64,000 nucleotides of DNA, taken from contig JAERTF010000024.1 in the NCBI GenBank assembly GCA_016845105.1, forward strand, positions 1 to 64,000, read 5' to 3'. This document shows positions 1,502 to 33,033 of the stretch, in pieces. The DNA comes from Bacteroidota bacterium (GTDB lineage: Bacteria; Bacteroidota; Bacteroidia; Bacteroidales; F082). Each line of letters begins with the position of its first letter. Position 1 is the first letter of the stretch. The position numbers were made by a program, and so were the translations under genes. The notes beneath the pieces are model-generated. The model worked only from the letters and a program-made list of their open reading frames with translations, was not told the DNA's origin and did not search any database.

Positions 1502-1587
1502 TTGTGGTAATAGGCTAAGTTGCCAAAAATTTAAATGGATATGAGAGTAAGGAGGGCAAATTGTTGTACTTAAATAATATTGATGAA

Positions 1588-1605
1588 AGAATAATCAATT
1601 ATTCT
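1588..1605. repeat. 8-bp inverted repeat between regulator and kinase
   Basis: AGAATAAT-CA-ATTATTCT is a perfect inverted repeat with 8-base arms in the 160-base gap between the response regulator and the kinase. It could be an operator or an mRNA hairpin. The gap also holds a strong AAGGAGG-like run near 1552 that is not followed by a recognisable gene. Confidence 0.3.
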
Positions 1606-1661
1606 CTACAATTCTATCTTTCCACCTTTCTACCACTTCAAATTCTATAACCTAATTAAGT

Positions 1662-3021: not shown

Positions 3022-3046
3022 CTTTGATCAATTAGTTATTTTATTC

Positions 3047-3172
3047 AATGAAACTCCTCGCAAGCTGACGAGGTATCTCAATGGAATCTTTATTTTTTCA
3101 ATACGCATCAAGATGCGGGGAACCAGCCTGCTGCTGGCAGGTATAACCCGGGAGATCCTTCTACTACACTCA
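3047..3172. repeat. Dispersed intergenic repeat, copy 1 (with nested palindrome)
   Basis: The sequence closely matches 23459-23569. Both copies share AATGAAACTC, then GCAAGCTGACGAGGTATCTC, CGCATCAAGATGCGGGGAA and TATAACCCGGGAGATCC. This copy carries an extra 19-base near-palindrome at 3123-3141 (CCAGCCTGCTGCTGGCAGG) that is absent from copy 2. It lies between the convergent kinase and SDR genes. The CGCATC-AA-GATGCG core can form a hairpin. The type resembles small non-coding REP-like repeats common in Bacteroidota. Confidence 0.8.
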
Positions 3173-3269
3173 GAATCAGTTCGACTAAATAATTTTGTTT
3201 CTCAAAATTAAAGTCTCAAGGATTCAAGTAATCTGATTAGCGCAACATTCTTCATTAAGTTATATTCAA

Positions 3270-4001
3270 TTATTTAGAAGCTGTTCCTTTATTATAGATA
3301 ACAGGCATCTGACCCTTCCATTGTTGCCATAGTTCATCATTTGTGATAAGGTCAGCCATAAATTGGCCGACATTGATACGACTGATTACACCATCATCTA
3401 CTATACTTCTCATGGGGGATGGGTAGATCTCTATTTCAGATGTTTGATCTTCATCAATTAATCCTGAAGGCCGAACGGCCACCCATTCGATGTCCTTGTT
3501 ATTTTGACCGATGATGGTTCTTAAGTATTCTGCAGCCTGTTCATTGTCGGGGTGTGGAGGAAGAAAAAGTCGTAGCATGACAATCATGATTTTCTGGGAA
3601 AAAGGAATGTGTTCATTAAGATCACGATTGCGGTTAGCAACTGTATTCATCAAAACAAATTTTGTGGATGTCTCAGGTTTATTTGCTTTTATGGCCATAC
3701 ATAAGCGTCGGGTTGCATCCGTTACCAGTCGGCGGGGTTTACCAAATATCCCTTTAAAAGTGAGGTTATGTCCCAGGCATGAGGCTACAGCACTACAGCC
3801 TGCAACTTGATGTTTTAGCTCATTATCTGTTAATTCCAATAAACTCGCCTGGATAAGATCCAGAGCTGTATGATTCATTATGGCTTCAGGCAATCTATCC
3901 GGAGATCGCACAATTGCCTTTACTTGATAACCTCGATTTAGTAACTCCTCAACCAATCGTATTCCTGTTGCACCGGTTGCACCTATAACTAATGTTGTCA
4001 T
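3270..4001 (-). CDS. NAD(P)-binding atypical SDR family protein
   Basis: The protein has a Rossmann-fold nucleotide-binding domain with glycine motif GATGATG at residues 8-14, typical of NmrA-like and extended short-chain dehydrogenases that bind NAD(P)H. LVIGATGATG, KAIVRSPDRLPE and the later VRPSGLIDE match the NAD(P)H-binding SDR_a5 type, whose substrates are mostly unknown. There is no signal peptide, so it should be cytoplasmic, unlike its exported neighbours. It is the last gene of the long minus-strand block. At 243 aa it is of normal length. The substrate cannot be read from the sequence. Confidence 0.85.
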   Translation of the reverse strand: MTTLVIGATGATGIRLVEELLNRGYQVKAIVRSPDRLPEAIMNHTALDLIQASLLELTDNELKHQVAGCSAVASCLGHNLTFKGIFGKPRRLVTDATRRLCMAIKANKPETSTKFVLMNTVANRNRDLNEHIPFSQKIMIVMLRLFLPPHPDNEQAAEYLRTIIGQNNKDIEWVAVRPSGLIDEDQTSEIEIYPSPMRSIVDDGVISRINVGQFMADLITNDELWQQWKGQMPVIYNKGTASK

Positions 4002-4100
4002 TTTAGTAAACTATTAATTAAATGTATTTTATATCTGATGTGTTCTTATGGCATTGTGTTCAGGTCTCTTAGCATGTTGGCTTTTCTCACAAGACCATCA

Positions 4101-5786
4101 TTATATTCTTTCAAATAATATTTTTTTTGCTCTTGGATTGTTTATAATTAAGCCAATAATTGAATCATCCTTTTCAAGGAAAGAGATGGATTGTATTAAT
4201 CCTGAATTACTAACAAAAGTCATACCATCTGAATGTTCAAGAATTAAATCATTGGGAAATACTGTACTTTGGATTTTCAATTCATTATTTTCATATTTAG
4301 CTTCATATTTTACATCAAGTTCCTGTGAATAGTATACACCAGCTAATTCGTTGTAATTAATACTATCCTCTTTTTTGTTTTCTTCAACTTTTAAAGCTAA
4401 GTAATTATTACCATTCACTTTAAGTGTATGACTACTTACTTTACCATTTTTTAAATGAAAAACAATTTCAGCTTTAGATTCTTTTGCAAAAAACACAGAG
4501 TCTGATTTAGCATAAAGTTGAATATTTTTATCGTATACATTAACGAAATACTGATCATCTTCTTTAAAAAATGTCAAATAACAACCTTTGTCATCCACCT
4601 GATCATATTTACCAGCACACAAAGTAAAAAATTCATCGTTCACTTCTTGTTCAATTAATTCAGTGTCATTTAATTTTTTTTCCTCTTCTTGATTAAAAAG
4701 AATATCAACAATATCAACTATCATTTTTTGGGGCTGTAATATACCATTATTGCTTAGTATAACTATGCCAATACTTTCTTCAGGAAAAAACGCAATTCCT
4801 GACCTATATCCTCCCCAGGCTCCATCATGCACATAAGCTTCCATGTTATTTATTTCACTTATGTACAAACCGTAGCCATACTCTATTGTTTTGCTGCTGT
4901 TTAATTTTCCTGTTTGAGTCATACTATCAAAGGCTCTATTACCACCAAGGCTCTTGTTATAAAAGTTTGTCATCCATTTTGACATATCTGAGGTATTGCT
5001 TTTAAGTGAGCTTGAGCCAGGTGCATTGAGGTTATTAGTAAAAGTAAGATAATTGTGTCCGGAATAAACATACGAATTAGCGATTATCTCTTCTTTTGAA
5101 TTGTTATCTTCAAGATAGAAAGTATTCTCCATTCTTAAAGGAACAAATATTTTATCATGTGTCCAACTATTAAATGTTGTATCTGTAACTGCTTCAACAA
5201 TTTTTGCCAGTAGATTGTAATTGGAATTACTGTACAAAAACTCAGTACCCGGAGTAAAGTTTAAACTTTCTTGATTTTTAAGAATATCATAAATATCATC
5301 CAATGAAAGTGGTTCTTCGGGCTGCCATCCTTTCAAACCAAAGAGCGAAGGCCAGTCTCTAATGCCAGAGGTGTGATGAACAAGTTGATTTATTGTAATA
5401 TCACTCATAACCTCTGGCAAATCAGGTAGGTATTTACTGATTTTATCATTAATATTTATTTTACCTTGTTCTACCAGAAGAGCGATTGCCATCCCTGTAG
5501 TTTGTTTACTAGCAGAGGCAATATCAAAAATTGTAGTTTCCGTTATTGGCGTCTTTTTGTCTAAATCAGCAGAACCGAAATTCCTTTTGTATATTATAGA
5601 GTCTTTCTTTGTAATTATCAAAGAATATCCGGGCTTATCGCCGTCATCTAAAGTTCCTTCTTGCTGGTTAAAGTAGGCATCTAATTGTGATTTCATCTCC
5701 TTTACCTGTACTGTATTGCACTGGATAAGACTAATAATTATCATTAACCCTAATCCAAGTGCTCCAATTTTTTTCTTTTTCATCAT
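4101..5786 (-). CDS. Serine hydrolase lipoprotein (class C beta-lactamase/PBP family)
   Basis: This is an exported serine hydrolase of the beta-lactamase/penicillin-binding-protein superfamily. A lipoprotein signal peptide ends in lipobox LIQC (Cys about 23). The catalytic SxxK motif is SASK (Ser 91, Lys 94), the YxN motif is YSNSNYN, and the third motif is HDGAWGG. A C-terminal extension of about 190 residues (CAGKYDQVDDKGCYLTFF...) looks like two DUF3471-type beta domains. Proteins of this type are usually peptidases or esterases rather than antibiotic-resistance enzymes. The substrate is unknown. The start has two adjacent Met codons. Confidence 0.9.
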   Translation of the reverse strand: MMKKKKIGALGLGLMIIISLIQCNTVQVKEMKSQLDAYFNQQEGTLDDGDKPGYSLIITKKDSIIYKRNFGSADLDKKTPITETTIFDIASASKQTTGMAIALLVEQGKININDKISKYLPDLPEVMSDITINQLVHHTSGIRDWPSLFGLKGWQPEEPLSLDDIYDILKNQESLNFTPGTEFLYSNSNYNLLAKIVEAVTDTTFNSWTHDKIFVPLRMENTFYLEDNNSKEEIIANSYVYSGHNYLTFTNNLNAPGSSSLKSNTSDMSKWMTNFYNKSLGGNRAFDSMTQTGKLNSSKTIEYGYGLYISEINNMEAYVHDGAWGGYRSGIAFFPEESIGIVILSNNGILQPQKMIVDIVDILFNQEEEKKLNDTELIEQEVNDEFFTLCAGKYDQVDDKGCYLTFFKEDDQYFVNVYDKNIQLYAKSDSVFFAKESKAEIVFHLKNGKVSSHTLKVNGNNYLALKVEENKKEDSINYNELAGVYYSQELDVKYEAKYENNELKIQSTVFPNDLILEHSDGMTFVSNSGLIQSISFLEKDDSIIGLIINNPRAKKILFERI

Positions 5787-5901
5787 GCCTTGTTATTATT
5801 AATTTAGTAATCCACGTTCTATTTCTCTGGCTTGCATACAACGTGTTAAAATACAACTTTTATTACCGTATATTAAAGTGAATTAAAAAGCTTAAATTGC
5901 T

Positions 5902-6342
5902 TTACTGATTTCTCTTGTAATCAGGGTTTACGGTAAATAAGTTATTTACATTTTTCCACTGACCATTAAGTTTTGCAATATGAAGATACTCTATGCATTC
6001 ATTAAAAATCACTTTTACACTAGCTATAGTTGGCATTGCATCTAGTATGAATACTTGAGTTTTTAAACCATATTCCCTGTCTTGATGAAACAACGTAATA
6101 TAATCCATCCGGGATTTATTGATAGTTCCTAAGAAGTCGATACTATCACGTGTATGAATACTTCTTTTTACAAATTCGAAATGGACTGCTTTATCAACCC
6201 TATCAGCATCCTTGTAGTACCATCCCTCAATGTAATCCAGGGCAGCTTGTTTTATTTGTATACTATCATTAGGTGTTTGACTTTTAACTGTGATTGTAAT
6301 GAGTACTATTATAATCACAGTGATGATTTTTAAAAATTTCAT
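5902..6342 (-). CDS. Exported NTF2-like (lumazine-binding type) protein
   Basis: A 146-aa protein with a hydrophobic signal peptide (about 1-21, ending VKSQ). It is followed by a small NTF2-like alpha+beta fold of the kind annotated as putative lumazine-binding (Lumazine_bd_2). The pattern QAALDYIEGWYYKDADRVDKAVHFEF, then a DYI segment, then WKNVNNLF at the end, is characteristic. Such proteins are common in Bacteroidota and mostly uncharacterised; catalysis is not shown. A second member lies at 8374-8844. Confidence 0.75.
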   Translation of the reverse strand: MKFLKIITVIIIVLITITVKSQTPNDSIQIKQAALDYIEGWYYKDADRVDKAVHFEFVKRSIHTRDSIDFLGTINKSRMDYITLFHQDREYGLKTQVFILDAMPTIASVKVIFNECIEYLHIAKLNGQWKNVNNLFTVNPDYKRNQ

Positions 6343-6441
6343 TTTTATCTGTTTATGTGTGTTATATATGATTAATCAAGTACTTTCAATGTTGCTGTAT
6401 ATGAATAATGAATCTAATTAACTTGTAATCACCACTTTTTA

Positions 6442-7443
6442 TTAATTATTTCTATAGTTATCAATTATCTTACTATCCACCCAGTAAATATCTGTTTTCC
6501 CCTTTTGAGGGTGATTAAATGATTCAATAAAATCATCTTTAATGATTTTGTAAGTCAATTTTCCCGGCAATTCTTTCGATTCCACTGATTGATTTGAGGT
6601 GTAGAAGAAATATTTGCCATCAGGAGAAACAATTGGGCAAAACTCTCTACCTGTTACATTGATCTCATCGCTCATTCTCTGAGGCAAACTCCATTCGCCT
6701 TCTTTGTTAAAAGTTATATACAAGCCATAACCGGAATCTCTGCCTAATGATGCGAATATCATGTAATCTTCTTTTGGTGAAATGAATATATCACCTTCCC
6801 AATGACTGTTTATGATATCATTTAACCTGACTGGATTTTCAAAACCATCTTCCAGTCTTTCTGCATAAAAAATATCTTTATTATTCTTTCCAATTCTTCC
6901 GGAAGAAAAATAAAGTTTGCCTTCCTGAGTTAAACTTGGATAAGTTTCATCTGCTGATGAATTAATATCCAAAGGTAGTCTTTCAGGTTCTAACCACTTA
7001 TCTCCGGCTCTGCGAGTTCTCCAGATATCCCAATCTCTTTTTGCTGCATTCATCGAATCAACAGGTCTTTTGGAAATAAAGTAGAGCCACTTACCATCAT
7101 AGGTTATAAAAGGATCTGCATCAGAATATCTGCCTGAGAATGATGCCACTTCCGGTTCTGACCATTTTTCCCCATCATTTATCATCGTCATAATAACCAA
7201 TTGTCCATTTGGCATTCTAATGGAAAAATAGAATTCTTTGAAGTCGGGAGAGAATGCGGCATTTATTTCTGACATTCCGGTAGAAACAATATTAGGGGCG
7301 AATAATTCAGGAGAAAGTCCAGGCTGTTTTTGTCCGAGATATTTACCAATTAGTTCTGGAAATTTATCTTTTTCATTTTCCATTTGATTGACATTACATC
7401 CCATGGTAATGATCAGTAATAAAAATAGAATCTGTTTTTTCAT
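6442..7443 (-). CDS. PD40 (TolB-like) beta-propeller lipoprotein, paralogue A
   Basis: Lipoprotein signal with lipobox TMGC (Cys 16), then a beta-propeller of WD40-like PD40 repeats. The repeats are marked by FSPDFKEFYF, ITYDGKWLYF, LTQEGKLYFSSG, ISPKEDYMIF and VSPDGKYFFY. It opens with YLGQKQPGLSPELFAPNIVS, a signature shared with 9714-10667 and the C-terminal half of 14476-16161. It ends with DIYWVDSKIIDNYRNN. Such propellers are periplasmic or surface ligand-binding scaffolds without their own catalysis. The stop lies 12 bases after the upstream TPR gene, so the two are probably co-transcribed. Confidence 0.85.
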   Translation of the reverse strand: MKKQILFLLLIITMGCNVNQMENEKDKFPELIGKYLGQKQPGLSPELFAPNIVSTGMSEINAAFSPDFKEFYFSIRMPNGQLVIMTMINDGEKWSEPEVASFSGRYSDADPFITYDGKWLYFISKRPVDSMNAAKRDWDIWRTRRAGDKWLEPERLPLDINSSADETYPSLTQEGKLYFSSGRIGKNNKDIFYAERLEDGFENPVRLNDIINSHWEGDIFISPKEDYMIFASLGRDSGYGLYITFNKEGEWSLPQRMSDEINVTGREFCPIVSPDGKYFFYTSNQSVESKELPGKLTYKIIKDDFIESFNHPQKGKTDIYWVDSKIIDNYRNN

Positions 7444-7455
7444 GGCTATATTCTG

Positions 7456-8337
7456 TTATTCCAGTTCCGACAATACTTTTTCAGCATTTTCGTTTTTGGG
7501 GTTTAACTCTAAAGATTTTTTATAAGCTATAATTGCATCTTCCATGTCACCTAGCTTTAATAAACACTCTCCGTAACTATCAAAAGTATTATAACTATTT
7601 GGATACAATTCTTTATTTAATTGAAATATTTTGCAGGCTTCTTCCTCTTTTCCTTCGTTCATCAAATTATATCCAAAGTGATTAAACCACGTTTCACGAA
7701 GATCATATTGAGTTGCCAGGATATCTTCATTCTTAACAAAAAGTACTATTTCATCAATGGTTTTCCCTTCATCCAACAATTCTGTTAGTTTTTTTCTATT
7801 CAAATTTTTTACTTTCTCTCTTTGCTCAGCTAAAGTTTCCACGCCGTATTCTATTCTTTCAGCGTCAGTAATTTTTGTTGAGTCTAATTCTTCTCTCACA
7901 ACAACATTGTTATCTAATCTCTTATATTGCGTACCATAAATTTGAGGTTTATTTATGCTCAACAAATATCTGTCAGACATTACAGCCAAAAACCATTTAT
8001 TTTTTGATGAATCCAATTCTATAGATTTTTTCATGAGTTTCACAGCCAATCCATAAGCAACGGAGTCTTCTCCATGGTGAAAAATCAATGCTGCATTACT
8101 ATAATCTGCTGATGTACGCACTTTATTGGAATCCAGCAATTCATATACTCTTGCTTCCCTTGTACTATCATTTTTTTGTCTAATACTCCTATCGATATGA
8201 TTCGTTCTATCTGCCTGATCACTTTTAAACATTTCAATAAGTTCCTGACTATCATTAACTTTATCCTGCGCTACGCTATTCGTAATATTGCATGAAATAA
8301 ATCCGATAATTACTATTAATAAAAAAACCTTTCTCAT
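7456..8337 (-). CDS. DUF6624-like and TPR-repeat lipoprotein
   Basis: A secreted 293-aa protein with a signal peptide and likely lipobox ISC at about 14-16. The middle part (SADYSNAALIFHHGEDS, then WFLAVMSDRYLLSINKPQIYGTQY) matches the DUF6624 pattern, whose function is unknown. The C-terminal 60 residues form tetratricopeptide repeats (NTFDSYGECLLKLGDMEDAI, then YKKSLELNPKNENA), used for protein contacts. It sits between an NTF2-like gene and a PD40 gene with short gaps of 36 and 12 bases, consistent with one operon. Confidence 0.78.
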   Translation of the reverse strand: MRKVFLLIVIIGFISCNITNSVAQDKVNDSQELIEMFKSDQADRTNHIDRSIRQKNDSTREARVYELLDSNKVRTSADYSNAALIFHHGEDSVAYGLAVKLMKKSIELDSSKNKWFLAVMSDRYLLSINKPQIYGTQYKRLDNNVVVREELDSTKITDAERIEYGVETLAEQREKVKNLNRKKLTELLDEGKTIDEIVLFVKNEDILATQYDLRETWFNHFGYNLMNEGKEEEACKIFQLNKELYPNSYNTFDSYGECLLKLGDMEDAIIAYKKSLELNPKNENAEKVLSELE

Positions 8338-8373
8338 TAGTCCATTTGATTAATTGCAAATATGTATTCAATC

Positions 8374-8844
8374 CTATTTGCTGTCTTTTTCAACCCTATG
8401 AGCTATTTTGCTTACAATCTTCCAGGTATCTTTGAACTTTATAAGCGAAAGGAAGTCAATATAGTTGAGTTCTTCACCTTCGTAGAATTCAATTTTGGCA
8501 ACTGCTACATTTCCTGCTATATCTATGAATAAAAATTTTACTGTTGTTAATTCATCTTGAAACGAATATTTATTGCCTTTGTCTTTTCCTTCTTTCGCAA
8601 TATCAATCCAATTATAAATGGGGAGCTTCCACATTGTATTTCCTTTTCCGGCACTCAGCAATTCAAAACCGGGATGAAAACCGTTATTAATGGCGTCTTC
8701 ATCTGCATTATTACACAACCCATCAACATAGGAAGTCTGAATTACTTGTTTAATAAGTTCTTTTTCGTTTACTTGCTCGTCTTGTGCGAATAAGGCGCTG
8801 ATTGACAACAGTGTAATTACGGAAACCAAAAATGTTTTTTTCAT
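8374..8844 (-). CDS. Exported NTF2-like (lumazine-binding type) protein
   Basis: 156 aa with a cleavable signal peptide (MKKTFLVSVITLLSISALFAQ) and an NTF2-like body: YVDGLCNNADEDAINNGFHPGFELL, then a long beta region ending FKDTWKIVSK. This is the same putative lumazine-binding family as 5902-6342 and is probably a paralogue that has diverged far. The function is unknown in this family. It lies upstream of the DUF6624/TPR gene in the same direction. Confidence 0.75.
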   Translation of the reverse strand: MKKTFLVSVITLLSISALFAQDEQVNEKELIKQVIQTSYVDGLCNNADEDAINNGFHPGFELLSAGKGNTMWKLPIYNWIDIAKEGKDKGNKYSFQDELTTVKFLFIDIAGNVAVAKIEFYEGEELNYIDFLSLIKFKDTWKIVSKIAHRVEKDSK

Positions 8845-8942
8845 CTGTTAGATTTTTCTTTATTGTTTATATTTTATTAAATTTTTTAATTTGATGTATG
8901 TTTAAAATTATTTCAATTGTTGCAAATAAATTATCTGATTCA

Positions 8943-9665
8943 TTACCATATTAAACACCCCAAAATATTATCAAAAACATTCATTATGCTATGTGCAATT
9001 ATCCCTGGAAATATTGAACCTGTCTTAATTCTCAACCAACTTAGCCCTAGTCCTGCAGAAAATGTCATAAGAAATATCTTAAACCCTTCAACAAAGCTTT
9101 CAGCATATAGCAAATGAGCAACCCCAAAAAGCATTGACAGGATAGCGATAATTACCCATATTTTTGCGTTTGAAGATTTGGATTGCTTGGCATAGTACAA
9201 CAAAAATCCAAGTACTGCACCTCTTAAACCAATTTCTTCTGCAATGCTTGGCATTGTTAGCTCAAACAGGTAATATTCAAGTCCACGGTTGAAATTTGGA
9301 TCGCTTGATAAGATTTGATTAGTAAAATTCCAGAAGGCAATTACAACACCAATAATAATTGTGTATTTCAACCAATTTTTATGTTTTGGTTTTTCCAATG
9401 CCAATAGTTGTTTTGGTGCTTTAAAAATAAAGGCTAAAAGAATTATTGCTATGATGCTTACAATATCCTGACCCCATCCCATTTTCAAACCCGGGTTCAA
9501 TATTTTCTGAATTTCCGAACCAAGAATCAGCCCACAGAAGAAAACAATGAGGAATATAATCGCCCAAATCAAAGGATTCTTTCTTTCCTCGGATAATGAA
9601 CTAATGCCTATGTAATTTCTAATATCCATATTTTGGTTTTGAGTTGTTAATCTCATTACAATCAA
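8943..9665 (-). CDS. CPBP family intramembrane metalloprotease
   Basis: A multi-pass membrane protein of the CAAX-protease/bacteriocin-processing (ABI) family. It carries the three conserved active-site motifs within predicted transmembrane helices: EEIGLRG (EExxxR), FGVAH (FxxxH), and HSIMN (HxxxN) near the C-terminus. The family cleaves peptides within the membrane; the substrate here is unknown. Possible starts are Met 1, 4 or 13 (9665, 9656, 9629). The Met 13 start MDIRNYIG gives a more usual N-terminus. Confidence 0.88.
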   Translation of the reverse strand: MIVMRLTTQNQNMDIRNYIGISSLSEERKNPLIWAIIFLIVFFCGLILGSEIQKILNPGLKMGWGQDIVSIIAIILLAFIFKAPKQLLALEKPKHKNWLKYTIIIGVVIAFWNFTNQILSSDPNFNRGLEYYLFELTMPSIAEEIGLRGAVLGFLLYYAKQSKSSNAKIWVIIAILSMLFGVAHLLYAESFVEGFKIFLMTFSAGLGLSWLRIKTGSIFPGIIAHSIMNVFDNILGCLIW

Positions 9666-16988: not shown

Positions 16989-17624
16989 TTATTCAGGAAT
17001 TACCTTTAAATTTCTAAAATACCCTTCAGAATTATTACCTACCCAAAATCCTACCCAGCCTTCTTTTCGTGAAATTAGTTGATCAATAGTTAAAGATGGT
17101 TTCTTTGAATTATTTACGAATACATTCACAGTAGGGTACTCAATTACTACTGTAACGTGAAACCAATCATTTGGCTCAGGCACCGGGGATATTGCATTCT
17201 CATACTTTTCAGGATGCTCCTGTCTTAGTATATACCATGGATATTCAGGATGAGAAATGTATTGAACTGAATGACCACTTCTATCAGGATTTTTAAAATT
17301 AAAAGGACGAAAATATATCGCTTCATAAGTGCTGTCGTTTAAACCATGAAATGCTATTCCAACAAAGCTTTTCCCCCGCTCATCTTTTCCTCTAATATCA
17401 AGCTCTATACTTCCATTAGTAAATATTGGTTCTTTAATCCAAAGTAATCCATCTCCAGGTCTTCCATCTAAATGAACTTCTTGGTCAATATTAATCTCTC
17501 TATTATGCAAAACCCATAGTTTAGAGTCATTAATTTTTGCTAAATCAGGGATTATTTCATTTTGTTGTGCAAATAATGAACTTATTGCCATTAAAAATAC
17601 TATTGTATTTAATATCTTTTTCAT
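16989..17624 (-). CDS. Exported lectin-fold (DUF1080-like) protein
   Basis: 212 aa: a signal peptide (MKKILNTIVFLMAISSLFAQ) and a concanavalin-A-like beta-sandwich similar to DUF1080/3-keto-disaccharide hydrolase domains. Typical strands are GDGLLWIKEPIFTNGSIELDIRG, SFVGIAFHG, WFHVTVVIEYPTVNVFVN and GWVGFWVGNNSEGYFRNLKV. Carbohydrate binding or cleavage is possible, but the small size and lack of obvious catalytic residues favour binding. Translation from 17651 is possible, but ATG 17624 starts a proper signal peptide. It heads a likely five-gene run, with a sigma-54-like element just upstream. Confidence 0.7.
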   Translation of the reverse strand: MKKILNTIVFLMAISSLFAQQNEIIPDLAKINDSKLWVLHNREINIDQEVHLDGRPGDGLLWIKEPIFTNGSIELDIRGKDERGKSFVGIAFHGLNDSTYEAIYFRPFNFKNPDRSGHSVQYISHPEYPWYILRQEHPEKYENAISPVPEPNDWFHVTVVIEYPTVNVFVNNSKKPSLTIDQLISRKEGWVGFWVGNNSEGYFRNLKVIPE

Positions 17625-17661
17625 ATGTTTTCTATTAACTAATTCGACCACAAACTATCTA

Positions 17662-17677
17662 AACCAGAGTCATGCCA
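17662..17677 (-). promoter_or_regulatory. Candidate sigma-54 -24/-12 element, site 3
   Basis: On the minus strand the sequence reads TGGCATGACTCTGGTT. It has a full TGGCA -24 half and a weak -12 half (TGGTT instead of TTGCW). The preceding bases make GTTTGTGGCAT, identical to 11 bases at site 1 (25445-25460). A start site near 17652 would give about 28 bases of leader to ATG 17624. The palindrome at 17764-17780 lies 87 bases upstream. Confidence 0.35.
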
Positions 17678-17763
17678 CAAACACCACCATGCTTATTTAA
17701 TGATGATTACCACAAATCATAGTTTAGATTCCAAGAATTAATATCAATTTTTTTTACACACAA

Positions 17764-17780
17764 TGTATATTTGTTTTACA
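17764..17780. promoter_or_regulatory. Candidate enhancer palindrome, site 3
   Basis: TGTATA-N5-TTTACA is one mismatch from the exact palindrome seen at 21148 and 25525. It lies about 110 bases before the putative start site of the 17624 gene, a normal position for sigma-54 activators. It overlaps the end of the WD40 remnant. Confidence 0.35.
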
Positions 17781-20147: not shown

Positions 20148-20969
20148 TTATTCCGGTTTCATTTCCATTTTTTTGTATTCTTCAATTGATTCATTTGTTG
20201 TATTAAAACGTTCATTTTCATTTACACCTATATTGAACTTAATATCATAATAAGTTTGGTCAATAAATACCTTTTGTTCAAGATTGTCAGTAGAATAAAA
20301 CTCTCCTTTTATTTTAATTGGATAGTTTGTTACCTTATCAATAAAGTATGTTGTTTTCGAAATGTTTCCTTTATCGTCTTCAAGATTAGTTGCAAATCCA
20401 GGCATTGTCATTTTGTCCTTCAATATCACTAAAACTTGATAACAGTTCATGTTTCCAACAATTGTATCATTTAATCTTTCTATTGAGTATAAATTAGAGT
20501 GGTTCAGCATGTACTTAAATTCAAATTGCATTCCGTATAATGTATTATGACTCCAAAAATGTTTTCTTTTAAAGTCAGGATATTTATCTAAATCATATAC
20601 CCTAACAATGCTATCTTGTTTGTTTTTTCGAATCAGTCTAATGCCATCGTAGATATCTTCGTAAACGATATTCTCTTTATCGTTTACATACATGTACCAA
20701 TGTCCTTTTACTCCAACTATTGAATCAGAAATCAGTCTTTTAAAATACATTTCACGATATCGAAGTATTGTATCATTAATATTTTGAGGATTTGTTCTCG
20801 CCATATCTTGCTTGTAATAAATTGTTTCAATAGTATCAATTGTAACTATTGTCTTTTGTATTATTTCTGATGCAGTCTCTTTCTCATTGCAAGATGTCAA
20901 TATCATTAAGATAATCGTGAAGTATGTAATTCTAAATATTGTAATTTGCTTATTGGTCGGTCTGGTCAT
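20148..20969 (-). CDS. Lipoprotein of unknown function (LolA-like fold possible)
   Basis: 274 aa from ATG 20969. Upstream ATGs at 20978 and 21020 are also open, but 20969 gives the best lipoprotein signal (hydrophobic FRITYFTIILMIL, lipobox LTSC). The mature part begins EIIQKTIVTIDTIETIYYKQ, is rich in beta strands and ends with an acidic tail. This pattern resembles LolA/outer-membrane lipoprotein-sorting families of Bacteroidota (TYFIDKVTNYPIKIKGEF), but I cannot name the function. The gene is bracketed by inverted motifs (20122-20144 and 20972-20994) that look like gene-cassette half-sites. Confidence 0.72.
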   Translation of the reverse strand: MTRPTNKQITIFRITYFTIILMILTSCNEKETASEIIQKTIVTIDTIETIYYKQDMARTNPQNINDTILRYREMYFKRLISDSIVGVKGHWYMYVNDKENIVYEDIYDGIRLIRKNKQDSIVRVYDLDKYPDFKRKHFWSHNTLYGMQFEFKYMLNHSNLYSIERLNDTIVGNMNCYQVLVILKDKMTMPGFATNLEDDKGNISKTTYFIDKVTNYPIKIKGEFYSTDNLEQKVFIDQTYYDIKFNIGVNENERFNTTNESIEEYKKMEMKPE

Positions 20970-20971
20970 TT

Positions 20972-20994
20972 GGCACATAACTAATGTATAACAA
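20972..20994. repeat. Inverted terminal motif, right end of possible gene cassette
   Basis: The minus strand reads TTATACATTAGTTATGTGCC immediately before the likely ATG at 20969. It is the partner of 20122-20144. The box-spacer-box layout and extra base in one copy resemble the L and R boxes of integron attC sites, but only one half of each site is found. Confidence 0.45.
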
Positions 20995-21067
20995 CTCCTT
21001 TCAATTTTTAACTTTTGCATTTAGGAAGCCTCTCATACTCTTTTTTCTATTCTTCCTTTTTCTATTA

Positions 21068-21083
21068 ATCAATGTTTGTACCA
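21068..21083 (-). promoter_or_regulatory. Candidate sigma-54 -24/-12 element, site 2
   Basis: The minus strand reads TGGTACAAACATTGAT: -24 TGGTA and -12 TTGAT with the usual GG-to-GA spacing. It differs from the TGGCA/TTGCW consensus at two bases. The enhancer palindrome begins 65 bases upstream, exactly as at site 1. A start near 21057 would leave about 88 bases of leader to ATG 20969. Confidence 0.45.
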
Positions 21084-21147
21084 ACATTGCTATAGGTCTG
21101 ACTATATGAACTTTGTCGTAGTAACTAGTGTAAATATTTATACTGTA

Positions 21148-21164
21148 TGTAAATATATTTTACA
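21148..21164. promoter_or_regulatory. Candidate enhancer palindrome, site 2
   Basis: Perfect TGTAAA-TATAT-TTTACA palindrome. Two partial copies flank it (GTGTAAATATT from 21128, GTGTACATTTA from 21170), suggesting a cluster of binding sites. It lies in the 207-base gap after the serine hydrolase gene and before the 20148 gene. Confidence 0.5.
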
Positions 21165-21227
21165 GTCAGTGTACATTTAGTTAACATATCTCTGTTATAT
21201 TTGCTTTGACTCCCCCTAATTTAGCCC

Positions 21228-23574: not shown

Positions 23575-25392
23575 TTAATCTTCTACTCTTTTGCATATAA
23601 CATCGTCTCCTCCATCCGGATGCATCGTCATACTTTCTATTTCGCCGGCATCATTAGTATTAAATGTAAATTCATACACCGAACCGTTAATAAAAAAATC
23701 AATTTGTGATCTTGGGTGTATGGGAATGTCACCTTGTTCAGGAACTTGCAATATCAACTGACCATCATTTTTGATAACAGTAAATATAAAGCCCGAACTC
23801 ACCTCATATTTACCTACATATGTTTCCAGAATTGCATCTTCAACCGTCACATCTTTGTACAACTCCGCCTTAGTAGGTTCAGGAATAGCGTTTAATAACA
23901 ATCGTCCTACCATTGTATAAGTGGGTGGTTCAGTGGCATCTTTGGTTAAAGGAAAGCCTGTAATTCCTGCTTCTCCACGTTGCCCTGCCTCAGCAACAAA
24001 GCTGAGATTACCATTTATATCCGGGCAAAATCTGAACATAAAACTTGCACCAAAATAGCTTGAGTAAAGGAGTTTGCTATTATTAATATCGATGACAGAA
24101 ACAAAAGATTTTCTGCGCCCAAGAAATGATGAGTTAAAGCTGCTCTCGCATTCTGGATATTCTGAATACAGGGCATTTTCAGAAAGTGGGAAGTCAGCAG
24201 AATTTGTTAATCCCCCAATTACAATAGTATCTTTATTAAGAAAATCGGCTGACATGACCCAATCAAAATCACTACCTCCAAATAAGGTAGCATATTCCAA
24301 TTCCATGGTTTCAGCATTAAATACAGATACAAAACAATCCTGATTGCCTTTAACCGTATCACAAATGGCGTTATCCGTTACTGGGAAAGCTTCTGCTTTT
24401 GTGCTGCCACAAACGATCAATCTGTTTGGTTTTGTCCACTTAATATATGCCCCCGCATATCCATCGGTTGCATAATAGCTTAAATATGAAATTTTGTGAT
24501 CATCATGGTCAATTCGGGCAATGTAATGATCCATTAAGCCCCCGGATTTGGGCATCAATATTTCTTTTCGAAAAGCATCTTCAGTTACTGCTAAGTCGGC
24601 TGTATAAGTTGCACCTATTAAATAGATGTTATCGTTGTCATCAATGGCAATTCCATTAATCCCTTCCCGCTGACTATCTCCAAAAAAGGTTGAAAATAGT
24701 AGATTTTTCCCATCAGGACTAAATTTAGAAATGAAACCATGCAAATTATCATTATTTTCAATGACACCTTTTGTTAATGGAAAGTTATGAGAGGAGGTAG
24801 TTCCAGCAATGATAATATTTCCTTTGGAATCAAGCTTAATACCACCTGTTCCAACTGTTTCTTGAACCTCGCCTCCAATAAATGTAGAAAAAATGATTTC
24901 CGTTCCGGTTGGATTTAACTTAGTTACGAAAACATCACCACCCCATGATCTTGCCCCGTTAAAACTGCTGTCATAGCATCCCTCAGTAACTGGAAAGTCG
25001 GATGATTCTGTTCCTCCGGCTATATATACATAGCCTTCATTGTCAACCGTTATTCCTGAGTGATGTTCTCTTTTGGTACCTCCAATTAAGGTGGCAAATA
25101 CCATTTCACCTTCAGGTGTGTATTTTACGACAAACACATCTGCTGATCCTTTCAATTCAGTTTGATAAGCGCCTTCAGTAGCCGGGAAATTCTTGTCTCT
25201 GGTATTTCCTGATATATAAGTATAACCTTCTCTATCGGCATAGATGTCGAAACCTGATGCATATTTATCGGTGTGTGAAAGATAAGTTGAAAACCCAAGA
25301 GTAAATACTGTAGTATCTGTCAGTTGGTTGGTTTGTGATACCAGAATTCCTTGAATAAAAAGAATTCCTAAAATGAGGATATATTTTTTCAT
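23575..25392 (-). CDS. Exported SBBP-repeat beta-propeller protein with DUF3471-like tail
   Basis: 605 aa: a signal peptide (MKKYILILGILFIQGILVSQ), then a series of SBBP repeats, the seven-bladed propeller type. They have the pattern FATLIGGTKREHHSGITVDN, YVYIAGGTESSDFPVTEGCY, FSTFIGG and FSTFFGDS. From about residue 520 it continues with YVGKYEVSSGFIFTVIKNDG and VYEFTFNTNDAGEIESMTMH. This domain resembles DUF3471, normally appended to beta-lactamase-like hydrolases such as its neighbours. There is no T9SS tail, so it is probably periplasmic or lipid-free surface-bound. It is the first gene of the minus-strand block. Confidence 0.85.
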   Translation of the reverse strand: MKKYILILGILFIQGILVSQTNQLTDTTVFTLGFSTYLSHTDKYASGFDIYADREGYTYISGNTRDKNFPATEGAYQTELKGSADVFVVKYTPEGEMVFATLIGGTKREHHSGITVDNEGYVYIAGGTESSDFPVTEGCYDSSFNGARSWGGDVFVTKLNPTGTEIIFSTFIGGEVQETVGTGGIKLDSKGNIIIAGTTSSHNFPLTKGVIENNDNLHGFISKFSPDGKNLLFSTFFGDSQREGINGIAIDDNDNIYLIGATYTADLAVTEDAFRKEILMPKSGGLMDHYIARIDHDDHKISYLSYYATDGYAGAYIKWTKPNRLIVCGSTKAEAFPVTDNAICDTVKGNQDCFVSVFNAETMELEYATLFGGSDFDWVMSADFLNKDTIVIGGLTNSADFPLSENALYSEYPECESSFNSSFLGRRKSFVSVIDINNSKLLYSSYFGASFMFRFCPDINGNLSFVAEAGQRGEAGITGFPLTKDATEPPTYTMVGRLLLNAIPEPTKAELYKDVTVEDAILETYVGKYEVSSGFIFTVIKNDGQLILQVPEQGDIPIHPRSQIDFFINGSVYEFTFNTNDAGEIESMTMHPDGGDDVICKRVED

Positions 25393-25444: not shown

Positions 25445-25460
25445 TTCAATCTTAATGCCA
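25445..25460 (-). promoter_or_regulatory. Candidate sigma-54 -24/-12 element, site 1
   Basis: The minus strand reads TGGCATTAAGATTGAA: a perfect TGGCA -24 half and TTGAA, one base from the TTGCA consensus, with correct spacing. It would start transcription near 25433, about 40 bases before the SBBP gene. The enhancer palindrome begins 65 bases upstream. Confidence 0.5.
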
Positions 25461-25524
25461 CAAACCATATACCCCTGAATAACTGTTTTTTACATTCTAA
25501 ATCTTTTATATTATATGGGGATAT

Positions 25525-25541
25525 TGTAAAAATACTTTACA
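25525..25541. promoter_or_regulatory. Candidate enhancer palindrome, site 1
   Basis: Perfect TGTAAA-AATAC-TTTACA palindrome in the 421-base gap between the divergent SBBP gene and amidase gene. Nothing coding is seen in the rest of this gap (25393-25813). The palindrome lies about 100 bases from the putative sigma-54 start on the minus strand. Confidence 0.5.
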
Positions 25542-25769
25542 TTAACTGTAACTAATATGTACACTTTATAATAGAACAAAATGGACCACACATTCCTAGA
25601 CTTTTATCTATGTTTGTATGAGTTAAGAGGAAAGAGATATAGTGCTCGAAAAACCATTCGAATACTTGTAATTCTCGAGACGAGATAATGAATGCAAACA
25701 AGTGCTCCTAAACACAATTTATTGTTGATAAATCATTGCTATACAAGCTTAGTGCTTTTTGGATTAGTA

Positions 25770-29708: not shown

Positions 29709-31646
29709 ATGAGTTTTAATTCAATATTAAATTACGAGAACAGCAAGAAAAAAGTGGGCTATGTAACTAGAAATGAGGCTACCCAAAACACATATGATTC
29801 GATTGGATTTATGTCGGGATTGGAGGTTCATCAGCAGTTATTAACCGACCAGAAACTGTTTTGCCATTGCCCTGCAGGTATATATAACAAAAGTGACGAT
29901 TATGATGCTGAATTAATTAGGCATATGCGTCCCACTTTAAGTGAACTTGGAGAATATGATGGCACAGCTTTAATGGAATTTAGAACCAGAAAAGAAATAA
30001 TCTATAGAATTAACAATGAAAATGCATGTACATATGAGGTTGATGACACACCTCCGTTTCCGATTAATATGGATGCATTGGAAAAGGCTCTTGAAATTTC
30101 ACTTTTATCAAAGCTAAATGTTGTTGGAGAGGTTCACATAACACGAAAGCAATATTTAGATGGTAGTATCCCAACGGGATTTCAGCGAACTGCGATTCTT
30201 GGAGTTGAAGGTGAATTAGAACTACCGAACAAAAAAATAAGACTAATTCAACTGAGTATTGAAGAAGATTCATGTAGGGAGATTAGTGATATTGGTCATG
30301 TTCGTTTGTACAAAACTGATAGGCTTGGTATGCCATTAATTGAAACTGTTACTTATCCTGATTTTGTAAATCCCGACGAAGTAAAGGAAGGTTGTGACTA
30401 CATTAGATTCCTAAACAGAAGCACAGGTAAAGTACGCACAGGAATGGGTGCTGGGAGGCAAGATGTAAATGTTAGCTGCCGAGGTGGAAATAGAGTTGAG
30501 ATAAAAGGTGTTGCCCACACAAAATGGATTCCAGAACTAACGCACAACGAAGCATTTAGGCAATGGGCATTACTTCAAATTAAAGATCTTCTTTTAACAA
30601 GAATTCACAATCCTGCAAATTGGAAAGTAAATCATGTATCCATTAAAAATCTCACTAAAGATATCCCAAACATATCTGATAAAGAAAATGTAATTGCCAT
30701 AAACCTACCACAATTTGAAGGAGCATTATCATATTTTACTCAGCCCGGTCAAATGTTTGCTGATGAGCTAAGTACCAGATTAAAGGTAATTGCTTGTATC
30801 GAAAAACCAAATATGACCCACTCGGAGGATATAAGTTCAGATATTGACGATAAACTATTTTCCAAGATTAAAGATATTCTAAATTCGAATAAAGGGGATG
30901 CTCAGGTTGTGCTTTGGGGAAATGAAGAGGATATGAAAACAGCCATTGAAACAATTGAAGAAAGATGCAAATTGGCTTTGGAAGGTGTGCCTGAAGAAAC
31001 TCGTAAATCGTTTGAAGATGGAACCACAATCTTCGAGAGAGTTTTACCAGGAGCAGATAGGATGTACCCAGATACAGATTCGGCACCCATACCACTTGAA
31101 GATAAATACATTGAAACCCTAAGAAAGAGAATTCCACAAGATGTAATTGATAATTATAAACAACTTAAGAAGTGGGATATTCCTGAAGAAACTTATACTT
31201 ATATATTTTCCAAAAATCTGTTTCCTTTAATTGAACGAATCATCAATGAACTTGGTGTTCAACCATCATATGTGGGCACCTTTATTGGACATGAGGTTAA
31301 GTTTGCTACAGGACATTATATTGGCCCCGAAAATTTTACTTTTGAAAGGGTTTATAGTTTATTTAAATATCTATCCAAAGAAAATATTAAACATGAGTTG
31401 GCCGAAAGAATGCTGCCAGACATGATATTACACCCTAAAATGGACTTTGACTCGATACTAACTAGTATTAATTTCAAACGGTATTCCAAGGAAGAGATAC
31501 TCTCTAAAATTCCACTTCTGTTTGACAAGTTTGCTGAAGGTAAAAAAGAAATATCACTACCTAAACAAAAAAACTGGGTAATGGGAAATTTGAGAAAGAT
31601 TGCAATGGGTAATATTAATTTGACAGAATTAAGTAAAGAGATTTAA
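29709..31646 (+). CDS. gatE: Glu-tRNA(Gln) amidotransferase subunit E (GatE)
   Basis: 645 aa. With GatD it converts Glu-tRNA(Gln) to Gln-tRNA(Gln), the GatE subunit activating the tRNA-bound glutamate. Family hallmarks are MSGLEVHQQLLTDQKLFCHC, GSIPTGFQRTAILGVEG, VSCRGGNRVEIKGV and the late ERVLPGADRMYPDTDSAP. The insert around residues 280-420 fits the AspRS-like GAD region, and the C-terminal helical tail fits the GatB/Yqey domain. The length is that of archaeal GatE. It begins an operon with gatD after one base. The two-subunit GatDE system is classically archaeal, so its presence here is notable. Confidence 0.93.
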   Translation: MSFNSILNYENSKKKVGYVTRNEATQNTYDSIGFMSGLEVHQQLLTDQKLFCHCPAGIYNKSDDYDAELIRHMRPTLSELGEYDGTALMEFRTRKEIIYRINNENACTYEVDDTPPFPINMDALEKALEISLLSKLNVVGEVHITRKQYLDGSIPTGFQRTAILGVEGELELPNKKIRLIQLSIEEDSCREISDIGHVRLYKTDRLGMPLIETVTYPDFVNPDEVKEGCDYIRFLNRSTGKVRTGMGAGRQDVNVSCRGGNRVEIKGVAHTKWIPELTHNEAFRQWALLQIKDLLLTRIHNPANWKVNHVSIKNLTKDIPNISDKENVIAINLPQFEGALSYFTQPGQMFADELSTRLKVIACIEKPNMTHSEDISSDIDDKLFSKIKDILNSNKGDAQVVLWGNEEDMKTAIETIEERCKLALEGVPEETRKSFEDGTTIFERVLPGADRMYPDTDSAPIPLEDKYIETLRKRIPQDVIDNYKQLKKWDIPEETYTYIFSKNLFPLIERIINELGVQPSYVGTFIGHEVKFATGHYIGPENFTFERVYSLFKYLSKENIKHELAERMLPDMILHPKMDFDSILTSINFKRYSKEEILSKIPLLFDKFAEGKKEISLPKQKNWVMGNLRKIAMGNINLTELSKEI

Positions 31647-31647
31647 A

Positions 31648-33033
31648 ATGGACAACGATATATTTCAAGGATACAAAGGAGATGCTCTAGAATTATTAAA
31701 AAAATACAAGGTTAGAGTATGGGGTACTGTGGTGGTTGATACTACACGTGGAACATTTGAAGGAACAGTATTACCCAGAGCTGAAAATGATGATGATAAA
31801 CATATTGTTGTTAAAATTATAACTGGCTATAATATTGGTATCGACACACGTACCATAACAAGCATGAAAGAAACTGGTTATAAAAAGGCCAATTATAAAA
31901 TTCCAGAAAAAGAGTTCCCAACAACACCCGGCCTCCCATATGTGAAACTTTTTGGAACAGGAGGAACAATTGCATCACGTTTAGATTATCGAACTGGTGC
32001 CGTAATACCGGCCTTTTCACCTGGTGAACTTTATGGTGCCGTACCTGAATTGGCAGATATATGTAATTTGGATACGGAGAAGATTTTTGCCGTATTTAGC
32101 GAGAATATGGGACCAAAACAATACATGGCGTTGGCTGTTGCGATTGGTAAAGAAATTGAAAAAGGTATTGATGGGATTGTAATAGGACATGGTACTGATA
32201 CTCTTCATCATACTGGTGCTGCTCTTACCTTTATGTGTCAAAACTTGCCGGTACCAGTTGTACTAGTTGGATCACAACGCTCCTCCGACAGGCCAAGCTC
32301 TGACGCTGCATTAAACCTAATGCATGCCATGAAAGCAGCAGGTCAGTCAGATATTGCAGAAGTAATGGTTTGTATGTTTGGCCCTACTTCTGATGAATAC
32401 GGACTCTTGCACAAGGGAACCCGAGTTCGTAAAATGCACTCATCTTATAGATCAACCTTCCGTACAATTGGTGATACACCTCTTGCACGTATAAATCGTA
32501 AAGAGATTCTCCCAATTAAAAAATCTTACAACAAACGAAGGAATGACAAAGATGTAAAGATCCTACCTTATTTTAGTGACAAGGTAACTATGCTTTACTA
32601 TTATCCGGGAATGGCAGCCGACACATTAGATGCTCTTGTTGAGAAAGGTTATAAGGGAATTATTTTTGTAGGAACAGGACTTGGTCACGTAAATAAAGAA
32701 TTGTACCCTGCAATCGAACGTGCACAAGCCAAAGGTGTGCATATGTATATGACATTACAAACATTATGGGGTTATGTACATATGTTTGTTTATGATACTG
32801 GTAGAGATATGATGGCTAAAGGTATTATTCCGGCAGGTAATATGTTGCCAGAAGTAGCATGGGTTAAGCTAAGCTGGATACTTGGACAAACAGAAGACCC
32901 TGAGGAAGTTAAAAAAATGATGCTTACTCCAATTAACGATGAAATTACAACTCGTGAACCATATAATGGTTATTTAGTTTATCAGGGAGGAGTTCCTGAA
33001 GTTGAGGATTTTATTAAGGACGTGCATAAGTAG
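31648..33033 (+). CDS. gatD: Glu-tRNA(Gln) amidotransferase subunit D (GatD)
   Basis: 461 aa. It is an asparaginase-like glutaminase that releases ammonia from glutamine or asparagine for GatE. An N-terminal SH3-like domain of about 90 residues (VRVWGTVVVDTTRGTFEGTV) marks GatD rather than asparaginase. The catalytic site follows: Thr 107 in GTGGTIAS, the TDT triad at 183-185 in HGTDTLHHTG, and a Lys in RKMHSSYRS. It has no signal peptide. Its stop precedes a repeat-rich 210-base gap. Confidence 0.93.
   Translation: MDNDIFQGYKGDALELLKKYKVRVWGTVVVDTTRGTFEGTVLPRAENDDDKHIVVKIITGYNIGIDTRTITSMKETGYKKANYKIPEKEFPTTPGLPYVKLFGTGGTIASRLDYRTGAVIPAFSPGELYGAVPELADICNLDTEKIFAVFSENMGPKQYMALAVAIGKEIEKGIDGIVIGHGTDTLHHTGAALTFMCQNLPVPVVLVGSQRSSDRPSSDAALNLMHAMKAAGQSDIAEVMVCMFGPTSDEYGLLHKGTRVRKMHSSYRSTFRTIGDTPLARINRKEILPIKKSYNKRRNDKDVKILPYFSDKVTMLYYYPGMAADTLDALVEKGYKGIIFVGTGLGHVNKELYPAIERAQAKGVHMYMTLQTLWGYVHMFVYDTGRDMMAKGIIPAGNMLPEVAWVKLSWILGQTEDPEEVKKMMLTPINDEITTREPYNGYLVYQGGVPEVEDFIKDVHK

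Follow-up and report, generated by a model that had tools for sequence, protein, structure and literature searches.

The window analysed here is a 64,000-base stretch of DNA (C24:1-64000 of a 4.50 Mb assembly of 4,501,363 bases in 210 contigs), and it raises the question of whether a palindrome that stands twice at one fixed distance from a promoter-like element marks a regulatory unit, and which proteins would act on such a unit. The original prediction had placed a palindrome at 21148-21164 together with a minus-strand -24/-12-like element at 21068-21083, and had described a second module of identical spacing at 25445. These parts are indeed present, the reported spacing of 65 being a coordinate offset that corresponds to 64 intervening bases in both modules, and both -12 halves do read TTGA. 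To these the present analysis adds a third copy, a tandem distal palindrome, a conserved element in the spacer and the gene of a regulator.

Module architecture and downstream genes

Three copies of one promoter module lie on the minus strand of the window, at 17662-17780, 21068-21186 and 25445-25563. Each comprises two palindromes of the TGTAAA-N5-TTTACA type set 22 bp apart, followed after 64 bases by a sigma-54-type -24/-12 element. The sites, their order, their spacings and phasing, their conservation and the surrounding gene neighbourhoods are read directly from the DNA. Model R1, to which some of the entries below refer, is a sequence model of 24 modules, none of them from this genome.

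17662-17677, minus: weaker -24/-12 element TGGCATGACTCTGGTT of gene 16989, third copy (R1 E 1.7e-8 genome-wide)
17685-17697, minus: IHF-like match of the third copy, 7/9 positions at offset -20 (consensus match)
17742-17758, no strand: degenerate proximal palindrome TGTAAAAAAAATTGATA of the third copy (from sequence)
17764-17780, no strand: distal palindrome TGTAAAACAAATATACA of the third copy, offset 87 (from sequence)
21068-21083, minus: sigma-54-type -24/-12 element TGGTAC-N5-TTGAT of gene 20148 (sequence TGGTACAAACATTGAT)
21091-21115, minus: third conserved element, IHF-like, near-symmetric in relatives, with its dyad 20 bases upstream of the -24 element
21148-21164, no strand: proximal palindrome TGTAAA-N5-TTTACA, predicted activator site (sequence TGTAAATATATTTTACA)
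21170-21186, no strand: imperfect distal palindrome TGTTAACTAAATGTACA, at 22 bp from its proximal partner (from sequence)
25445-25460, minus: -24/-12 element TGGCAT-N5-TTGAA of gene 23575 (from sequence; R1 E 6e-10)
25468-25480, minus: IHF-like match of the 25445 module, 7/9 positions at offset -20 (consensus match)
25525-25541, no strand: proximal palindrome TGTAAA-N5-TTTACA of the 25445 module (from sequence)
25547-25563, no strand: distal palindrome TGTACATATTAGTTACA of the 25445 module (from sequence)
26-95, minus: probable activator sites, in tandem, of a divergent module that precedes the activator gene and is truncated by the contig start (weak partial R1 matches)

Both GG and TTG are present in the 21068 and 25445 elements, and the 17662 copy has a weak -24/-12 element (TGGTT). 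At the contig start, partial R1 matches at 26-95 (E 0.135 genome-wide) and 35-77 (E 2.9e-4 within the window) probably come from a fourth module ahead of the activator gene: its enhancer half is on the contig, and its promoter part would lie off it.

The genes behind the three modules are as follows.

16989-17651, minus: 3-keto-disaccharide hydrolase-like (PF06439, just over cut-off), behind the 17662 module
20148-21020, minus: lipoprotein-like by eye, no Pfam family, behind the 21068 module
23575-25392, minus: SBBP beta-propeller with DUF3471, behind the 25445 module

Downstream of the three promoters a co-directional block runs from 25392 down to about 3270, and includes an SBBP propeller, a serine hydrolase (PF00144), a transglutaminase, a WD40 protein, a metallo-hydrolase, a PD40/esterase and a Por-sorted protein; the operon extents are presumptive.

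Occurrence in the genome

The exact palindrome TGTAAA-N5-TTTACA is found at four places in the genome (one for a reversed control), namely two in the window, C162:11972 and C8:383. All four precede a GG-N10-G element, which is CGGCACGAGCATTGGA at offset 65 in C162 and GGGCACTATATTTGAC at offset 54 in C8. Every exact palindrome of the genome therefore has a -24/-12-like element downstream (offsets 65, 65, 65 and 54), which bears out the original argument that motif and spacing did not recur by chance. Further upstream, all three window copies and C162 have a weaker second palindrome at a distance of 22 bp, and C8 has one at 21 bp; in relatives a distal palindrome recurs at offsets 86-89.

With at most one mismatch allowed, the window holds four palindromes against 1.1 expected and 44 matches to the -24/-12 pattern against 23 expected, and neither count is reached in any of 100 shuffles. 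In the genome as a whole, the composite pattern with at most three mismatches occurs at 12 places (control 2), of which three are exact, one has two mismatches and eight have three. C24:17664-17758, upstream of gene 16989, is among the last eight; the other eight inexact places (one with two mismatches, seven with three) all fail to reach E 0.01 with R1. At E<0.01 the genome-wide R1 search, which scored 150 of 8159 first-look candidates and may miss weaker sites, returned five matches, three of them in the window: C162 (2e-13), C24:21069 (running to 21186; 5e-12), C24:25446 (6e-10), C24:17667 (2e-8) and C8 (1e-3), with the next at 0.02. A position matrix trained without this genome likewise scored the window modules at 65.5, 64.4 and 42.5, all three above its reporting threshold, the best of 10 resampled windows reaching 0.1.

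Outside the window, the C162 module precedes an operon of HlyD-type, FtsX/MacB-like and ABC-ATPase genes, and the C8 module precedes an FtsX/MacB-like permease. The predicted regulon, as part of an overall explanation in which we place considerable confidence, would thus take in the C162 operon for a MacA/MacB-like exporter, the FtsX-type permease of C8 and, behind three promoters that lie within 8 kb, genes of the block of secreted proteins, lipoproteins and hydrolases beside the two-component system.

Conservation among relatives

Among 393 genomes of the order (this one included), the exact-spacing module with at most one mismatch occurs in 21, at 28 places against five for the reversed pattern. 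Of the 392 other genomes, 16 have an ortholog, at 64-74% identity, of the activator encoded at 119-1501 in the window (the next match listed is at 59%), and the module is present in eight of these 16 genomes versus 12 of the 376 others (Fisher 1e-7). The matches in G303, G369, G129, G058, G127, G244 and G144 look like chance, G303 alone of these having been read in context.

Contexts were read in 16 stretches around module matches and 20 around activator homologs. Nine genomes (G172, G203, G089, G269, G256, G297, G287, G346 and G283) have the module in the gap that separates the activator gene from a divergently oriented gene or operon, in most cases of HlyD, ABC and FtsX type; for G089 and G256, the reference set contains no match to the first gene on the divergent side. 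As far as these neighbourhoods indicate, the module in relatives is often flanked on one side by an NtrC-family sigma-54 activator and on the other by an exporter operon of MacB/FtsX type that runs in the opposite direction. G172 also has orthologs of 23575 (77%), 21228 (61-64%), 20148 (66%), 17908 (65%) and 13430 (54%), and in G176 a module directly precedes a 67% ortholog of window gene 16173. Seven of the 20 activator-homolog stretches (L140, L146, L147, L153 and L157-L159) have no module by the criteria used; in L150 the only module is far from the activator, and in L148 the only one is at offset 107. In one further locus (L149/L184; G284 C147, JAGGUP010000015.1), the activator gene and a 23575 ortholog diverge from an intergenic stretch that contains the module, which makes a direct link between the regulator and a gene for a secreted protein.

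A set of named relatives was also compiled, in which 80 of 130 related loci were kept (Marinilabiliales, Salinivirgaceae, Prolixibacteraceae, Marinifilum and Gelidibacter, with some non-Bacteroidota at low identity); some are the same records as genomes of the first sample (e.g. L244 and G172). A module was counted where a palindrome matching at least 10/12 positions at offset 30-110 lay at most 450 nt upstream of the activator, expectations being drawn from first-order resampled sequence. By this count, and with one contig-edge locus left out of each of the first two classes, modules accompany 23 of 29 testable loci at an activator identity of at least 61% (0.40 expected), 19 of 29 at 49-59% (0.28 expected) and none of 20 at 35-48% (0.08 expected). 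Of the six loci in the first class with no module within 450 nt, L185, L187, L195 and L200 have one further away, and L204 and L205 have none that is convincing.

The original prediction had proposed that the module should be conserved in close relatives that retain the downstream gene, and here the outcome differs from gene to gene. For 23575, a module stands 34 bases before the 81% ortholog in L184, and immediately ahead of the orthologs in G172 (77%) and G176 (76%) none was detected. For 20148, homologs of which occur in five of the 393 genomes including this one, the one close ortholog (G172, 66%) is not immediately behind a module but 8.6 kb below one, within a series of co-directional genes, and the homologs in G386 (40%) and G344 (42%) lack a module; gene 20148 was accordingly rejected as a conserved target. 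For 16989, a module lies one gene upstream of the 79% ortholog in G347. Given this mixed record, the module is associated more closely with the regulator and exporter than with 23575, 20148 or 16989 individually, and the few homologs of 20148, the more distant of them lacking the module, likewise point to the regulator-exporter pair as the conserved core. Taken together, the comparisons make the DNA switch look real and conserved in a number of Bacteroidota. The promoter-like reading made at the outset also gains from the single RpoN of the genome, the gene for a sigma-54 activator in the window and the recurrence of the layout beside that activator's orthologs.

Enhancer spacing and helical phase

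When the gap between exact palindrome and -24/-12 element was left free between 49 and 79, matches were obtained at 52 places in 34 of the 393 genomes versus three for controls. Of the 33 other genomes matched, 29 are among the 189 with an activator match at E<=1e-130 and four among the 203 without (Fisher 9e-7). The distances fall at 53-57 (14 places), 64-66 (23) and 75-79 (11), the others being 51, 51, 60 and 67; 48 of the 52 places thus lie in three bands about 11 bp apart, these bands having been drawn after the data were seen and tested on the same data, in which some places share one promoter through tandem palindromes. The best period is 11.45 (resultant length R 0.77; 0.76 at 11.0 and 0.72 at 10.5), and none of 5000 uniform random sets is as phased, with the same result for one value per genome (34 values); R is also 0.77 for the 47 places outside this genome. 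Three such bands are as expected for sites that would occupy one face of the helix.

The same distances recur at loci linked to the activator. In the class of at least 61% identity, 18 of 23 best distances are 64-66, the others being 87 (three times), 89 and 39, and at 49-59% identity the distances are 54-55, 76-77 and 87-89, with one at 66.

Individual loci illustrate the layout one turn shorter: G003 (L161), G201 (L167) and G286 (L166) have two exact tandem palindromes at offsets 75-76 and 53-55, and G101 (L165) and G349 (L164) have proximal sites at 53-56. G101, G201, G286 and G349 are the four same-family genomes of the sample. At L155 (G176 C43, 10031-10846), two offset-76 modules about 700 bp apart, with a small ORF between them, stand in a row before one exporter operon, perhaps through duplication of the promoter.

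The -24/-12 element and the spacer element

From the searches we collected 51 distinct modules with offsets of 64-66; L074, L080, L082 and L088 were dropped by eye as chance, and the remaining 47, which are related sequences, were aligned on the -24 box. All 47 have the GG and the -12 G, both of which the selection score favours. The fourth -12 base is A in 33, G in six, C in six and T in two, and it is A in both of the originally reported copies. Textbook sigma-54 promoters have C after the TTG of the -12 element. This C being a consensus position and not an absolute one, we treat the A as a lineage variant and claim no consensus promoter. The genome encodes one RpoN (PF04552, E 3e-52), and dependence of the modules on sigma-54 is, as judged from these motifs, a component of the overall explanation that we hold to be very probable.

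Conserved columns are also present in the spacer, specifically TGTAT at -34 to -30, C at -25, WWTCAG at -20 to -15, TA at -9/-8 and TT at -3/-2. The IHF consensus WATCARNNNNTTR placed at offset -20 is matched at seven or more of nine positions in 31 of the 47 modules, and the mean match there is 6.7 versus 3.6 in base shuffles (z 15), with the qualifications that the modules are related and that the -20 offset was noticed on the alignment on which it was then tested; the IHF pattern itself played no part in the choice of modules. The mirror image of WATCARNNNNTTR at -32 is matched at seven or more positions in 18 of 47. The match at -20 and the mirror match at -32 together make the spacer element near-symmetric, with its centre at -20. 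All three window copies match 7/9 positions at -20 (21091-21103 in the 21068 module), and relatives match up to 9/9. Of 19 modules with offsets of 53-57, scanned over the whole spacer, 11 have their best match at -19, or 10 of 17 once L208 and L215, which are also in the first set with a different -24 box, are excluded; several of the rest are related. A shift of the enhancer by one turn therefore tends to leave the element in place relative to the promoter.

With respect to the protein that may bind here, the symmetry is unlike that of a classical site, the E. coli IHF consensus being asymmetric, and could instead indicate the operator of another dimeric regulator, a co-activator or repressor acting between enhancer and promoter. 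Each half of the element nonetheless fits WATCARNNNNTTR in register, and four matches to the HU/IHF family occur in the genome, one of them partial and at a contig edge, the products of which could act as homodimers. The retention of the element near -20 in most modules whose enhancer lies one turn closer also argues for a bend site, as does its position between the activator sites and the -24 box, which is where IHF often assists enhancer-promoter looping in classical systems according to the portions available of PMC7057263 and PMC7175178. A separate operator is hence a possibility that we take seriously and consider somewhat improbable, and we proceed with an IHF/HU-type bend site as the preferred reading.

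The candidate activator and its kinase

Two genes at the start of the window would encode the regulatory pair.

119-1501, plus: NtrC-family activator with receiver, AAA+ and Fis-type HTH domains (PF00072, PF00158 and PF02954 over cut-off), predicted palindrome binder
1662-3021, plus: putative cognate histidine kinase, its frame broken near 1820 as assembled, with the HATPase domain in ORF 2095-3021

The activator has the loop GSFTDA in place of GAFTGA. A change from G5 to D in the GAFTGA loop is documented for FlgR in the part of PMC3162934 available. By PF00158 the genome has seven strong and three weak matches to sigma-54 activators, one of the strong ones being in the window. Named NCBIfam equivalogs (NtrC, AtoC, ZraR, FlgR and others) give no assignment, the activator lying below every cut-off among the 25 of 90 matching models listed. 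Homologs of the kinase adjoin the activator in relatives, and the frame change near 1820 is either an assembly error or a real loss. On contig C162 (L050), very large ORFs at 603-9586, upstream of the exporter operon and divergent from it, resemble by eye multi-PAS hybrid histidine kinases.

A second activator of the same subfamily is encoded in the genome (two matches at E<=1e-130), so that we infer which activator binds which site. This paralog, or an unrelated regulator whose sites are only fortuitously linked, could be the protein that binds the palindromes: similar palindromes stand beside such paralogs in the 49-59% class, which suggests that specificities may overlap, and the C8 copy has the spacing of 54 seen in that class. 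The 65/87 layout follows the clade of at least 61% identity closely, however, and the window activator probably has such sites upstream of itself. Binding by a different protein is consequently unlikely in our estimation, and the window activator is retained as the predicted binder.

The TyrR box, TGTAAA-N6-TTTACA, was considered as an identity for the palindrome and rejected. The palindrome has an N5 spacer, the N6 form is absent from the window, and the activator scores 240 against a TyrR cut-off of 576.

Duplication or chance

The three window copies lie within 8 kb on one strand and might descend from one promoter duplicated with its flanking DNA, in which case the spacing would be inherited and uninformative on function. 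Alignment of the upstream regions, which had been suggested as a check on the first two modules, gives an ungapped register over 141 bases at 48% identity, motifs included, and the flanks barely align. The downstream genes have no common Pfam family, and the C162 copy and copies in other families of the order keep the spacing, so that we judge simple duplication very improbable. Chance pairing of two AT-rich motifs can be given almost no weight at all: the -24/-12 pattern alone is common (101 matches genome-wide versus 33 for the reversed control), but all four exact palindromes have it, and the model and phasing statistics and the searches across the order and the activator loci point the same way.

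Proposed mechanism

We consider it highly likely, on the strength of the sequence comparisons, that each module is a sigma-54-dependent, enhancer-activated promoter driven by an NtrC-family regulator with an IHF/HU-type bend. Protein binding, the identity of the bending protein, phosphorylation and activation are predicted steps of this scheme. The partner kinase (1662-3021) would phosphorylate the response regulator (119-1501), which would then bind the two TGTAAA-N5-TTTACA sites, 22 bp apart and about 100 bp upstream of the start, allowing its AAA+ ring to assemble. Bending by an IHF/HU-family protein may take place at the near-symmetric element, which adjoins the -24 box on its upstream side, and the bend would set the ring against RNA polymerase-sigma54 waiting at GGYAY-N5-TTG. 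ATP hydrolysis would open the promoter, and the first transcribed base would be expected some 12 bases below the -12 G; for gene 20148 this position is near 21057. Such a loop would be short and stiff, and spacing would for this reason be kept near whole helical turns (about 54, 65 and 76). The signal is perhaps envelope or antimicrobial stress.

A broader proposal, for which we put the chances at about even, is that these modules represent a widespread Bacteroidota class of sigma-54 promoter that is rigid and helically quantised: two turns would separate the tandem palindromes, the distance to the promoter would change by whole turns (about 54/65/76), and a symmetric bend site, at a fixed place relative to the -24 box, would receive a homodimeric IHF-like protein. 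Such promoters would couple a two-component system to a MacB-like exporter and, here, to a secreted-protein island. There is a real chance that this quantised, near-symmetric layout is a distinct variant.

Relation to known systems

In terms of architecture, the modules resemble the NtrC/NifA enhancer, IHF and sigma-54 promoters (nifH, glnA; for looping and IHF, the available part of PMC7057263) in having activator sites about 100 bp upstream with a bend-site candidate between, a GG/TTG -24/-12 element and an NtrC-family activator with a kinase. They differ in the operator TGTAAA-N5-TTTACA, the mostly TTGA -12 element, the exporter and secreted-protein targets and the phylum, and also in a bend-site candidate that is near-symmetric and set about 20 bp above the -24 box. 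CbrB of Pseudomonas, as the available part of PMC6296734 describes it, shares subsites 20-25 bp apart on one helix face, IHF assistance and sigma-54, but its subsites are non-palindromic and variably spaced, whereas those here are palindromic and nearly fixed. The Vibrio qrr enhancers (PMC4740811, available part) likewise carry a helical-period signature (10.45 bp) in natural sigma-54 enhancers; they have another activator, other targets and another phylum, and the signature there is in loop sequence, here in three discrete enhancer-promoter spacings.

A published study (PMC12316311, PLoS One 2025) has predicted from promoters that COG0577/FtsX-like permeases of Bacteroidia are under sigma-54 control, and terms this first evidence; the target class, FtsX/MacB-type ABC permeases in Bacteroidia, is the same as ours. 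In the portion of PMC12316311 available, no cognate activator is named, nor a bend site or fixed geometry, and UAS and MacB are absent from the main text. It was the sole paper on sigma-54 and FtsX-like permeases in Bacteroidia among the matches listed. The literature searched, which mostly did not extend to subscription papers, yielded nothing on this activator, operator, bend site or geometry, and no described sigma-54 activator-enhancer pair in Bacteroidota.

The analysis thus brings together one regulator, its probable operator, a promoter geometry and a short list of predicted targets, with five sites in the genome. The discrete steps of about 11 bp amount to a natural experiment on sigma-54 loop stiffness, and from the third element one can predict that an HU/IHF-family protein has a defined role. 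The arrangement also suggests common control, perhaps by envelope or antimicrobial stress, of an exporter and poorly annotated secreted proteins.

Elsewhere in the window, and in what seems to be a genome of Bacteroidota, adjacent plus-strand genes at 29709-33033 exceed the NCBIfam cut-offs for GatD and for GatE, in the case of one GatE model by a narrow margin; these are components of a Glu-tRNA(Gln) amidotransferase that is usually regarded as archaeal.
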